Below are positions 1 to 2,586 of a stretch of DNA of 10,115 nucleotides, one piece after another (position 1 is the first letter of the stretch; each line of letters begins with the position of its first letter). Location of the stretch: assembly GCA_016177145.1 (NCBI GenBank), contig JACOVV010000140.1, positions 1-10,115 of the forward strand, written 5' to 3'. This DNA is from Candidatus Omnitrophota bacterium (lineage in GTDB: Bacteria; Omnitrophota; Gorgyraeia; JACOVV01). Position numbers and translations under genes: made by a program. The notes under the pieces were generated by a model that saw nothing but the letters and a program-made list of their open reading frames with translations, searched no databases and was not told the origin of the DNA.

Positions 1-918
1 GGCATACTAGATTCTCAGGAGTCTCGTGGGATCGGTGTTGTGTATATGAGAGAGCTCATCTGTCTTATTTACGGCGTTATCTTCGCTCTCGACACCTGGG
101 GCTGGCATTTTTCCTTTCCTAAGAACATCACCTATGCTTTCCGCTGGCGGAGCCTCTTTGGAAGCCGGCTTGCCGGAGAAGCCATTAACTATGTCACTCC
201 TTTTGCCGCACTTGGGGGAGAACCCGTCAAAGCGCAAATTTTGAAGGACCGGCACCAAGTCTCATGGAGTGATGGACTGGCGTCAGTCATCGTCGCCAAA
301 ACCTCGCTGACTTTCGGGCTTCTCCCTTTGATCCTTTCGGGGCTTGGGGTGGCGTTATGGAATTCTCCATTATCCCAGCGGTTGAAGCTGGCGACCCTCG
401 GGATGACGCTCTTCTTGACTCTCTTAATCTCGCTTTTCTTTTACCTACAGCACGGAGGGCTGGCGAATCGAAGCTGGCTTGCCTTAAAAAAATGGATCCC
501 TCTTGCCTGGATCGAAAAAACCTCTAATTTTGCCGGAAGGAGGACCGATCAGAGCTTGACTGGGTTTTACCGTAATCACCGGAGACGGTTTCTCTTGTCG
601 ATCCTGTTTCATTTTCTGGGCTGGGCGCTGGGAATTGTTGAAATCTATCTCATCATGAGATTTCTTCATATCGAAATTTCGTGGGGGCAGGCGTGGATTC
701 TGGAAAGTCTCTTGCAGTTAGTCAAAGCGCTCTCTTTTCTGATTCCCGCCGCTTTAGGGACCCAGGAAGGTGGAGCGCTTCTTCTCTGTACGGGTTTAGG
801 CCTTGGCTCTGCCAGCGGTATCTCCCTGGCTCTGGTCCGGCGATTCCGCGAATTGGTCTGGGCGGGGGTTGGGTTATTGCTCTGGGTGTGGTTGATGCGG
901 CCGAAAATAGCGCGATGA
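1..918 (+). CDS. Flippase-like / HpnL-type (LPG synthase TM, UPF0104 family) membrane protein, 5' partial
   Basis: Integral membrane protein of the lysylphosphatidylglycerol-synthase transmembrane/UPF0104 family, whose members (including HpnL of hopanoid clusters) are proposed to move or modify lipids in the inner membrane. The frame is open back to base 1, so the real start probably lies outside the window; the first in-frame ATG is at 46. Of 305 visible residues, hydrophobic segments lie at about 16-35, 94-120, 131-150, 197-224, 233-262 and 285-301. Family hallmarks are the G-E-A-I-N-Y-V-T-P stretch followed by L-G-G-E-P-V-K-A (about residues 60-80) and the late I-P-A-A-L-G-T-Q-E-G-G segment. 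The stop overlaps the hpnA start as ATGA (915-918), so the two are translationally coupled. The hopanoid context supports an HpnL-like role in membrane lipid handling, but the substrate cannot be read from the sequence. Family assignment is firm; the HpnL subfamily is likely but unproven. Confidence 0.78.
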   Translation, partial: GILDSQESRGIGVVYMRELICLIYGVIFALDTWGWHFSFPKNITYAFRWRSLFGSRLAGEAINYVTPFAALGGEPVKAQILKDRHQVSWSDGLASVIVAKTSLTFGLLPLILSGLGVALWNSPLSQRLKLATLGMTLFLTLLISLFFYLQHGGLANRSWLALKKWIPLAWIEKTSNFAGRRTDQSLTGFYRNHRRRFLLSILFHFLGWALGIVEIYLIMRFLHIEISWGQAWILESLLQLVKALSFLIPAALGTQEGGALLLCTGLGLGSASGISLALVRRFRELVWAGVGLLLWVWLMRPKIAR

Positions 919-1946
919 GTGATCTTATTCTTGTCACAGGCGGCACCGGGTTTGTCGGACGGCACCTCGTCCAGAAACTTGTGGCGCGCGGTGAGAAGGT
1001 GCGGGTGTTGGCACGGCCGAAAAATGTAGGGGCGGGCCCCCGTGCCCGCCCTGATAATAAGGGCAACCACGGGGGGTTGCCCTTACAAAATGTCGAAATC
1101 TGCCAAGGGGACCTCACCGATCCTTCTTCTCTTCGCCAGGCGCTCCAAGGATGTCGTTTTCTCTATCACGTCGCGGCCGATTACCGGCTTTGGAGTCTTC
1201 ATTCTGAAGAACTCTATCAATCGAATGTGGAAGGAACACGAAATATCCTGCAGGCGGCCAAAGAAGCCGGCATTGAAAAAATTGTCTACACCAGCACTGT
1301 CGGAGCTCTAGGAAACACCGGAGAGGGGACTCCCGGGAATGAAGAAACGCCTGTCTCTTTGAAAGAAATGACCGGCCATTATAAACGTTCTAAGTTCCTG
1401 GCGGAAAAAATCGCCCTTGATTTTGCCGCTCACGGGACGCCGATTATCATTGCCAATCCAAGCACTCCCGTGGGGTCCTGGGATGTGAAGCCGACGCCGA
1501 CGGGACAAATGATCGTCGATTTCCTGAAAGGAAAAATGTTTGCCTATCTTGACACCGGGCTTAACCTTGTTGACGTCGAAGACGTTGCCGAAGGACATAT
1601 CCTGGCTATGCAAAAAGGAAGAACCGGTGAGAAATATATCTTGGGCCACCGCGACCTTCCACTAATCGAAATTTTCCAGATCTTGAGCCGGATCACGGGG
1701 CGCCCCGCGCCAGCCCGACGGATGCCTTTCGCGGTCGCTTTCGCGTTCGCTGCCTTCTCCACCGCTTACGCTAATTGGATCAGCAAGAAACCGCCGATGA
1801 TCTCTCTGGAAGGAGTCCGATTGAGCAGGAAATACATGTATTTCGACTCGTCGAAAGCGGCCCGCGAACTCGGATTCCGGCCGGGCCCGGTCGAACAGGC
1901 GCTTGAGAAAGCGGTCCGCTGGTTCCAAGAACATCATTATGTCTAA
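915..1946 (+). CDS. hpnA: Hopanoid-associated NAD(P)-dependent sugar epimerase/reductase HpnA, with an in-frame repeat insertion
   Basis: Extended short-chain dehydrogenase/reductase (dihydroflavonol-reductase-like) of the HpnA type, a cytoplasmic enzyme of hopanoid gene clusters; its exact reaction is not firmly established. The 343-residue protein starts at ATG 915, because the Rossmann motif G-G-T-G-F-V-G (9-15) needs only the usual short N-terminus. The T-S-T-V-G-A-L-G strand and the catalytic Y-K-R-S-K (YxxxK) motif follow. The segment with N-P-S-T-P-V-G, then K-P-T-P-T-G and D-T-G-L-N-L-V-D-V is highly typical of HpnA. Residues 37-58, between the second strand and the V-E-x-x-x-G-D-L motif, are encoded by a palindromic element (1025-1087) and give an odd Gly/Pro/Arg-rich loop longer than in the family. 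The loop is on the coenzyme side, so its effect on activity is uncertain. It overlaps the upstream gene by 4 bases and hpnG by 8. Confidence 0.9.
   Translation: MSDLILVTGGTGFVGRHLVQKLVARGEKVRVLARPKNVGAGPRARPDNKGNHGGLPLQNVEICQGDLTDPSSLRQALQGCRFLYHVAADYRLWSLHSEELYQSNVEGTRNILQAAKEAGIEKIVYTSTVGALGNTGEGTPGNEETPVSLKEMTGHYKRSKFLAEKIALDFAAHGTPIIIANPSTPVGSWDVKPTPTGQMIVDFLKGKMFAYLDTGLNLVDVEDVAEGHILAMQKGRTGEKYILGHRDLPLIEIFQILSRITGRPAPARRMPFAVAFAFAAFSTAYANWISKKPPMISLEGVRLSRKYMYFDSSKAARELGFRPGPVEQALEKAVRWFQEHHYV
1025..1087. repeat. 63-bp double-hairpin palindromic element inserted in frame in hpnA
   Basis: The element begins TGTAGGGGC and ends GCCCTTACA; the end, reverse-complemented, matches the start at 8 of 9 positions. 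Inside are two perfect hairpins: GGGCGGGC (1030-1037) with GCCCGCCC (1044-1051), an 8-bp stem with a 6-base loop, and an 11-bp stem formed by 1058-1068 with 1075-1085, again with a 6-base loop. The heptamer AAAATGT occurs at 1021-1027 and at 1087-1093, flanking the element as a direct repeat. The repeat-to-repeat distance is 66 bases (22 codons), so insertion or excision keeps the frame. No protein of its own is encoded; it resembles REP/MITE-like non-autonomous elements. Whether the heptamer is a target-site duplication or partly belongs to the element cannot be decided from one copy. Confidence 0.85.
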
Positions 1947-2586
1947 TCCCGTTTTAATCTTCGCCGCCACGCGCTGGGAGGTGAGCCCGGAGATCTATCA
2001 ATTGCCAAACACCGCTGTAATTCTTACTGGGATGGGGATGGACAACGCCTATCATGTAGGGGCACATTGCAATGTGCCCCTACATGGCGAACGCACCGTG
2101 CCCCTGCCAGGGCAATCCCTTTTCCTCTCCATCGGTTTCTCCGGCAGCACCCATGAATCCCTTCGTCCTTATGATATCGTCTTAGCAAATGCGGCTTACC
2201 CGATTACTTACTCAAAGCGATGGGAAACAAAAAAAGAATTTAAATTCCCTGAATGGAATCTTTCTCTTTACCATAATACTCCTTTTGAAAAATCCCGCGT
2301 CGTATGGGGACGGATCGGAACTGTGCCCAGGGTCATTTGGTTAACGCGCACTAAAAAAATCCTAGGAAACGCCGGAGGGGTCTGCGCTGTTGACATGGAA
2401 TCTTGCGCTGTCGCCCGCGCCGCGCAAGAACGCTATTTGCCTTTTCTGGCAATCCGTATTATCCTAGACTCCATTGATGAGCCGCTTATCGGCTGGCGGC
2501 CGTGGGAATTTCCCAGTCGTGTTTTCAAAGCAAGAAAAATCCTTGGAAGGTTTGTGTCACGCAACATATCACATATAGTATCATGA
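1939..2586 (+). CDS. hpnG: Hopanoid-associated phosphorylase/nucleosidase HpnG, carrying an in-frame palindrome
   Basis: Purine-nucleoside-phosphorylase-superfamily protein of the HpnG type. In hopanoid producers HpnG removes adenine from adenosylhopane, made by HpnH, to give (phospho)ribosylhopane, the route to bacteriohopanepolyols; it is cytoplasmic. The 215-residue product starts at ATG 1939, overlapping hpnA by 8 bases, with M-S-N-P-V-L-I-F-A-A-T as the first strand. Visible motifs are T-G-M-G-M-D-N-A (about 30-37), S-I-G-F-S-G (about 65-70) and the nucleoside-binding V-D-M-E-S (151-155; D152, E154). Residues 39-50 are encoded by a perfect 34-bp palindrome, and the following residues look repeat-derived as well. 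This stretch sits where the family has a helix after the GMG-NA loop, so this enzyme may be structurally altered even though the frame is intact. The partner hpnH is not in the window. Confidence 0.83.
   Translation: MSNPVLIFAATRWEVSPEIYQLPNTAVILTGMGMDNAYHVGAHCNVPLHGERTVPLPGQSLFLSIGFSGSTHESLRPYDIVLANAAYPITYSKRWETKKEFKFPEWNLSLYHNTPFEKSRVVWGRIGTVPRVIWLTRTKKILGNAGGVCAVDMESCAVARAAQERYLPFLAIRIILDSIDEPLIGWRPWEFPSRVFKARKILGRFVSRNISHIVS
2053..2086. repeat. Perfect 34-bp palindrome of the TGTAGGGGC family inside hpnG
   Basis: Bases 2053-2086 form an uninterrupted palindrome centred between 2069 and 2070, with half-site CATGTAGGGGCACATTG. Its ends share TGTAGGGGC with the element in hpnA, about 1 kb upstream, so both probably belong to one repeat family with different cores. 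It begins exactly on a codon boundary and encodes H-V-G-A-H-C-N-V-P-L-H-G without a stop. A degenerate half-copy follows: GTGCCCCT at 2074-2081 recurs at 2098-2105. As RNA it could form a very stable hairpin within the hpnG message. Confidence 0.85.

Follow-up and report, generated by a model that had tools for sequence, protein, structure and literature searches.

GTAG-tagged REPs within protein genes of a Candidatus Omnitrophota bacterium, with signs of loop replacement and core turnover

The palindromic element within hpnA of a Candidatus Omnitrophota bacterium, at positions 1026 to 1086 of the window (the whole 10,115-nucleotide stretch of DNA analyzed here), is a member of a family of GTAG-tagged repetitive extragenic palindromes (REPs) and not a Rickettsia palindromic element (RPE). 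When the element is placed beside its copies in the genome and the corresponding sites in relatives, a joint reading emerges that we regard as very probable: a head-to-head GTAG-REP dimer, spread in a RAYT-like manner, took the place of native loop sequence, and the site is kept while its core is exchanged or re-invaded.

The REP dimer in hpnA and its family

An earlier note, made from the letters of this DNA, had described a translated 63-bp palindrome between 7-bp direct repeats. Both of its hairpins are confirmed at base level (8-bp arms at 1030-1037 and 1044-1051, 11-bp arms at 1058-1068 and 1075-1085), as are the copies of AAAATGT at 1021-1027 and 1087-1093, spaced 66 bases apart, and the reading frame, which stays open across the whole element. 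A palindromic unit is thus present inside hpnA, but the element proper is 61 bp at 1026-1086 on the forward strand, not 63 bp, and encodes VGAGPRARPDNKGNHGGLPLQ, the last codon being finished by host bases. Unit 1 (1026-1051, forward strand) consists of an unpaired GTAG tag, an 8-bp stem, GGGCGGGC/GCCCGCCC, and a 6-base loop. Unit 2 (1061-1086, reverse strand) is inverted, with the stem GGGCAACC/GGTTGCCC and the tag variant GTAA, which is partly paired with the linker (1052-1060); pairing of the linker bases TAA at 1058-1060 with this tag yields the 11-bp stem. Both units are 26 bp long, within the 20-40 bp of REP palindromes, and the two stand head to head with their tags outside, the arrangement expected of GTAG REPs. 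Folded as DNA, positions 1021-1093 reach -23.9 kcal/mol, compared with -13.05 (sd 2.16) for 200 shuffles, of which none was as stable (z -5.0).

The host gene (915-1943, forward strand; 343 codons, stop at 1944-1946) encodes a hopanoid-associated sugar epimerase that scores 449.1 bits against TIGR03466 (cut-off 367.65), with a Pfam Epimerase domain over residues 5-244. Among genomes compared as DNA, the contig scan gave HpnAs at most 55% identical to this one, and the relatives' genomes gave at most 60%. From the alignment and the general fold, we take the REP loop to follow the second strand of the Rossmann fold; its position rests on alignment to the solved chain 3wj7_A, which shows a 13-residue gap there. 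The suggestion of a dispersed, nonautonomous palindrome, in frame and tolerated in a loop of the coenzyme-binding domain, finds support, and the lengthened loop is probably near neutral for the enzyme.

The window contains a second REP in an adjoining gene (1939-2586, forward strand) for an HpnG-like phosphorylase, which matches Pfam PNP_UDP_1 at 49.5 bits and TIGR03468 HpnG at 60.8 bits, under the cut-off of 187.1. At 2056-2083 (forward strand) lies the 28-bp perfect palindrome GTAGGGGCACATTGCAATGTGCCCCTAC, read in frame as VGAHCNVPL, of which 101 contigs of the same genome hold 8 copies, the window copy counted. At E<=1e-20, the HpnG-like gene itself was found only in its own genome among 384 genomes of the class.

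A lack of other genomic copies of the hpnA element, named in the earlier note as grounds for refutation, is not the case. A search of its own genome (G000) with a 73-base query from the element returned 33 matches, and high copy number is evident from the GTAGGGGC-hairpin-GCCC pattern, with 124 forward and 128 reverse occurrences against 1 and 4 for the reversed-pattern control (palindromic copies are counted on both strands). Among 59 genomes, own included, the GTAGGGGC pattern is also abundant in G001, G003, G037, and G056; in most others its counts are close to those of the control or lower, and G007 and G020 have high control counts themselves. The 28-bp two-tagged form is present in 44 of 384 class genomes, with a reversed control of 0 in the same table; the top count, 102 copies, belongs to the class relative G088.

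The ends of the family (GTAGGGGC...) are fixed, and the stems vary with pairing kept. Among the matches listed there are 41 distinct cores, 21 of them perfect palindromes and 37 with 5 or 6 of 6 pairs. The core pattern placed no constraint on the 12 central bases; perfect pairing is expected in 0.02% of random draws. In 121 of the 237 contigs of G000 we counted 115 units in 80 elements, and plain head-to-head dimers make up 8 of 70 elements in 101 contigs. The commonest monomers, of 28-29 bp, carry paired GTAG/CTAC tags at both ends, a departure from the unpaired-tag norm of REPs. Of 125 outer GTAG ends in 121 contigs, 54% are preceded by T and 27% by C (0.38 bit), a weak target or footprint preference. 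REPs also probably break the assembly, since REP-like words occur at 27 of 242 contig ends, compared with 38 of 2420 internal 60-mers.

REPs in protein genes and the lengths of host loops

By placement, 27 of the 80 elements lie inside predicted open reading frames (ORFs), 10 overlap a gene end, 28 are intergenic, and 15 fall within 60 bp of a contig end. The in-ORF share is thus 27 of 65 elements away from contig edges, spread over 22 ORFs, with purH, gatB, rtcB, and recG among the hosts; the gene finder was home-made, and several of the 27 are near an ORF end. Because the finder missed the HpnG-like gene, the second REP of the window is counted among the 28 intergenic elements. The share lies below the coding share of 78.6%, from which it would follow that REPs within genes are selected against but far from excluded.

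The frames of these elements are not evenly used. Read in gene direction, the first base falls in the three frames 21, 6, and 0 times, and for the 24 elements whose first base is the tag the counts are 19 (VGA...), 5 (RG...), and 0, the empty third frame being the one in which the TAG of GTAG is a stop codon. The first open frame is in excess with a p of about 0.006, an excess to which codon-biased gene calling may contribute. A scan of host proteins places REPs in frame inside conserved protein genes, with a Pfam family in 19 of the 20 proteins scanned (19 of the 22 ORFs and the HpnG-like protein). By coordinates, 10 elements lie within a single Pfam domain (HpnA, the HpnG-like protein, purH twice, a trpE-like chorismate-binding enzyme, an acyl transferase, a laccase-like protein, GatB, an amino acid permease, and RtcB) and 4 between domains of one protein (the trpE-like enzyme, a VWA/TPR protein, a SAM hydroxide adenosyltransferase, and RecG), while several other in-ORF elements are near the N or C terminus and may not be truly internal. 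Translation of in-gene REPs into the host protein is predicted from sequence. In one further arrangement (L026 191-2308), a MiaB ORF reads through a REP dimer into a TPR/SPOR protein, and the dimer may have joined the two genes in one frame.

Comparison of loop lengths suggests what an inserted REP does to its host. Insert-free HpnAs, which the earlier note proposed to look for, make up 8 of the 13 aligned (alignment A1), and all eight have 16 residues from R34 to I62. The same stretch counts 29 residues in the window and P0002, 18 in P0001 and P0003, and 26 in P0004. It follows that the 61-nt form (29 residues) and the 28-nt forms (18 residues; their nucleotide length is deduced from protein) imply loss of the same 22 nt of native sequence. 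Deletion of the 66-base unit would leave 7 residues in the loop, nine short of the native 16, and the precise excision of 22 codons envisaged earlier is at odds with this comparison.

In purH (L009 11447-13096), REPs or REP remnants occupy three sites in the genome itself, and P0135 has a fourth. Loops at site A measure 19 residues in five of seven carriers (18 in P0135, 26 in P0136) against 19-21 without a REP, and loops at site B 22 residues in four carriers against 20-23 in five proteins without one, two composite forms reaching 33. Site C, with a REP only in the own genome, has 27 residues against 22-24, and at site D the REP loop of P0135 (21 residues) is shorter than those of REP-free close relatives (26-36) and like those of distant ones (19-20). 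GatB is six codons longer than in 10 of 11 relatives aligned (11 of the 18 relatives with a match yielded loci), which means that 10 of 28 nt are offset, and the SAM hydroxide adenosyltransferase is about 18 nt longer than its counterpart in G001. A clean 28-bp insertion would add +27 or +30 nt, a net gain seen in none of these four genes (HpnA, purH, GatB, and the SAM hydroxide adenosyltransferase); HpnG-like loops without a REP vary from 16 to 29 residues, too much for a length test. Where length can be judged, in these four genes, the alignments place REPs in the stead of roughly 10-30 nt of native loop sequence.

Some REP sites hold more than a standard unit. The longer peptides VGAMPFDSAQGKHMPPL and AGAVRACPEHTRREPPL, at REP sites of P0136 and P0004, look like REPs with extended loops. 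Site B of purH in the own genome (L009, about 12412-12473) begins as a REP and continues with two GGGACAGTCCC-type stretches, encoding a peptide common to P0134; this composite is perhaps another repeat inserted in a REP.

These lengths bear on the idea of a clean mobile insertion with a 5-7 bp target duplication, able to excise precisely, for which the flanking AAAAT/AAAATGT and the 66-base, 22-codon unit would be the signature. The GTAG tag begins at 1026, so the first AAAATGT contributes its GT to the element and only AAAAT (5 bp) is left as a repeat outside, the outer part of the apparent direct repeat, formed by host codons at 1021-1025 and 1087-1091 (forward strand). Among 37 elements tagged at both ends in 101 contigs, the flanks share 0 bases in 28, 1 in 4, 2 in 3, 3 in 1, and 5 in 1, the last being the hpnA element; shuffled flanks predict 27.7, 5.6, 2.7, and 0.7 elements with 0 to 3 shared bases, 0.17 with 4, and 0.04 with 5. 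An exact 5-bp match is thus expected only about 0.04 times in 37 elements, which speaks for the clean insertion; this match is the only one above 3. As a single match of such length among 37 elements, the AAAAT repeat is real and rather unlikely by chance (about 1 in 20), yet it is no family property, and A-rich host codons are a sufficient explanation. No regular target duplication was found, the other 36 elements lacking the pattern, so the 7-bp repeat is not supported as an insertion footprint, and a TIR-type MITE with target duplication was rejected across the same 37 elements. Moreover, P0002 and P0003, with REPs at the same codon, lack the flank residues that AAAAT would give. Together with the 7 residues left upon removal and the absent +27 or +30 nt, this makes clean insertion very unlikely.

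Turnover of REP cores at shared sites

Different cores occur at the same sites in relatives. In HpnA, a single alignment column holds the dimer peptide in the window and P0002, VGAVREPPL in P0001, VGATHASPL in P0003, and a longer form in P0004; at the HpnG-like site, VGAHCNVPL of the window is matched by VGAGLKPAPT in P0124, VGARHAVPL in P0125, and a dimer-like peptide in P0122. Of 11 aligned purH proteins, 7 carry a REP at site A, and at site B four do so in addition to the two composite forms (own genome and P0134). In three genes, REP-like peptides of relatives differ while their starts lie within one codon of each other and share the reading frame. At the DNA level, the REPs in purH of both species of the genus (G000 and G001) begin at an identical codon at site B, and their starts at site A differ by one codon, with the frame kept and the cores different; P0137 is this purH of G001 (538 of 539 residues). 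Exact matches of 8-10 residues link translated REP DNA of G000, G001, or G003 with P0001, P0124, P0125, P0133, P0135 (two sites), and P0138, while the core implied by P0003 was not among the REP matches listed. Next to the SAM hydroxide adenosyltransferase gene, one intergenic site is taken up by a dimer of 58 bp in G000 and by a degenerate monomer of 27 bp in G001, with ATTTT after both; compared ungapped, the flanks agree at 6 of 30 bases on the left and 18 of 30 on the right.

That these peptides could be encoded by palindromes is suggested by four of the 28-bp type, the window's included, whose interior allows a full palindrome, as do 2.2-6.3% of random tetrapeptides. A longest-stem scan of back-translations is too permissive on its own, since REP-free proteins reach equal stems elsewhere, and over whole proteins it did not rank the loops of P0004 and P0122 clearly first. 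The loop of the REP-free P0123, compatible with a 13-bp stem, may be a decayed REP.

Core turnover, which for hpnA and hpnG is read from the protein sequences of relatives, would have its most likely explanation in core exchange of some form, with insertion into hotspots next. A more specific proposal, which we put forward tentatively, is that REPs act as exchangeable in-frame cassettes: the overwritten loop becomes a lasting socket in which the hairpin core is swapped and boundaries and frame are kept.

It could instead be argued that independent insertions have hit hotspot loops repeatedly, with no REP-for-REP exchange. The occurrence of REPs is scattered over the gene trees, where support at some nodes is as low as 0.15, and as it does not follow the trees, repeated gain or loss is as possible as exchange. 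P0125, for example, stands beside the REP-free P0126 (support 0.997), P0002 among REP-free P0006-P0008 (0.896), and P0122 beside P0123 (only 0.239), and the mild T/C preference before the tag points the same way. That preference is, however, far too weak to pick one codon, starts agree within one codon and in frame in three genes, and the dimer and monomer forms of HpnA imply the same 22 nt lost (given the monomer length taken from protein). On balance, we consider hotspot insertion rather unlikely.

Alternatively, each site might hold one ancestral REP whose core drifts, its palindrome being kept by hairpin template correction, in which one arm is copied from the other. Very different cores that are near-perfectly palindromic would fit such a process, near-neighbor cores exist among the matches listed (e.g., GAGGCATGCCTT and AAGGCATGCCTT), and the AAGGGC/GCCCTT stem of the window is consistent with a paired change from AGGGGC/GCCCCT, which the residues of P0002 allow. 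Template correction nevertheless offers no route from a monomer, as in P0001 (91% protein identity), to the dimer in the window, nor to exact copies of REPs present elsewhere, and it appears improbable as the explanation of the pattern.

The very stable fold and the presence in frame in several relatives might also suggest that selection keeps the hairpin in hpnA, as a conserved regulatory RNA or as a functional loop of the protein. Eight of 13 aligned HpnAs do without it, the peptide differs freely among carriers, and these repeats are also met in unrelated genes and in intergenic DNA; selection for such a function is the least plausible of the explanations weighed here.

A possible route of spread and its relation to known systems

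Core exchange or re-invasion at a lasting site could be accommodated in the following scheme. Single-stranded REP hairpins would be spread by an HUH transposase of the RAYT/TnpA-REP kind that reads the GTAG foot, and insertion would remove roughly 10-30 nt of the target. Survival within a gene would require a tolerant loop, either of the two frames in which the TAG of GTAG is not read as a stop, and a net length that is a multiple of three. The site would then persist as a REP site while other REPs of the genome replace or re-invade its core; the enzyme, conversion between hairpins, or repeated insertion could each bring about such displacement. For HpnA, the outcome would be a longer loop after the second Rossmann strand. 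Members of the IS200/IS605 family are not known to need a target duplication. Action of the TnpA-REP type would suit the near-invariant tags, the freely varying stems, and the absent duplications; TnpA-REP is described as binding and cleaving single-stranded REPs via GTAG and hairpin, at dinucleotides beside the structure (PMC8266576).

A search for such an enzyme returned no Y1 transposase (PF01797) in G000, a 60% complete genome. One Y1 protein in G001 reaches 45.8 bits against the NF047646 cut-off of 80, as a domain piece only, and has no REP in the 2.2 kb examined. No REPtron was found at nine Y1 loci of G001, G003, and G037, although at L243 a GTAGGGGC unit lies on one side at a distance of about 0.8 kb; none of the nine has units on both sides, and the Y1 ORFs were compared in the correct frame at five of the nine.

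The closest known relatives are the GTAG-tagged REPs of Di Nocera, De Gregorio, and Rocco 2013 (PMC3733652), whose text describes dimers, mostly head to head with tags outside, and some copies within genes, more than half of these intragenic inserts being dimers or groups encoding 20-30 amino acids. The elements here share the short palindrome with a GTAG foot, the head-to-head dimers, the high copy number, and the intragenic copies. They differ in that the published tag is unpaired at one end, whereas the commonest monomers here are tagged and paired at both ends, and in the large in-ORF share and the failure to find a linked RAYT. The sequence GTAGGGGC is absent from the running text of that article, in which the consensus sequences of its 24 families stand in a figure, outside our comparison. 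The same article mentions two Xanthomonas recB genes in which roughly the same position is taken by different REPs, and it counts the R. conorii intragenic repeats RPE-4 and RPE-6 among CGTC-tagged REPs.

With REPINs and BIMEs (Bertels and Rainey 2011, PMC3116915; PMC8266576) the element shares an inverted REP pair, which is the mobile unit there, and the GTAG and hairpin recognized by TnpA-REP on single-stranded DNA, but at 61 bp in all it is shorter than the GI doublet, with 71 bp between 16-mer starts; no cognate RAYT was seen here, and the consulted portions of those papers do not describe loop replacement. Likening the insert to RPEs, as had been done at the outset, is apt in concept, since RPEs (Ogata 2000, as given in PMC2229807) also lie in frame inside conserved genes and are tolerated by the enzyme; Gmk with an RPE insert stays active (PMC2229807). 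RPE membership itself was dropped, as RPEs are Rickettsia-specific and 105-146 bp long, with no GTAG foot in the description given there, against 61 bp here, and GTAG-tagged REPs are the proper family. ERIC/RU and Correia elements resemble the present ones as miniature elements fused in frame to host ORFs, yet they are about 100-200 bp long with terminal inverted repeats and target duplication (PMC2229807), and no duplication is seen here.

Intragenic GTAG REPs, dimers encoding 20-30 residues, and the same-site remark on recB are already known. Beyond that remark in PMC3733652, the literature searched, as far as its text was accessible, gave no account of loop replacement or core exchange by REPs, and the search returned no paper joining Omnitrophota with repetitive extragenic palindromes. 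In the accessible parts of the literature compared, we did not meet two-tagged monomers, loop replacement measured against REP-free orthologues, or repeated turnover in three genes. Unusual here are the in-gene share, the tags on both monomer ends, the loop replacement, and the core turnover.

REPs are usually treated as extragenic, and 27 of 65 assessable copies in predicted ORFs, including those of purH, gatB, recG, and rtcB, make this genome natural material for studying the insertion of REPs and the limits of what proteins tolerate. From matched sites in relatives the outcome of insertion can be read, with no regular target duplication and roughly 10-30 nt of native sequence missing. The old question of whether REPs move or are rewritten by conversion may now be approachable with strain-level sequencing. 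If the cassette reading is true, the surface loops of housekeeping enzymes would be rewritten repeatedly by a selfish repeat.
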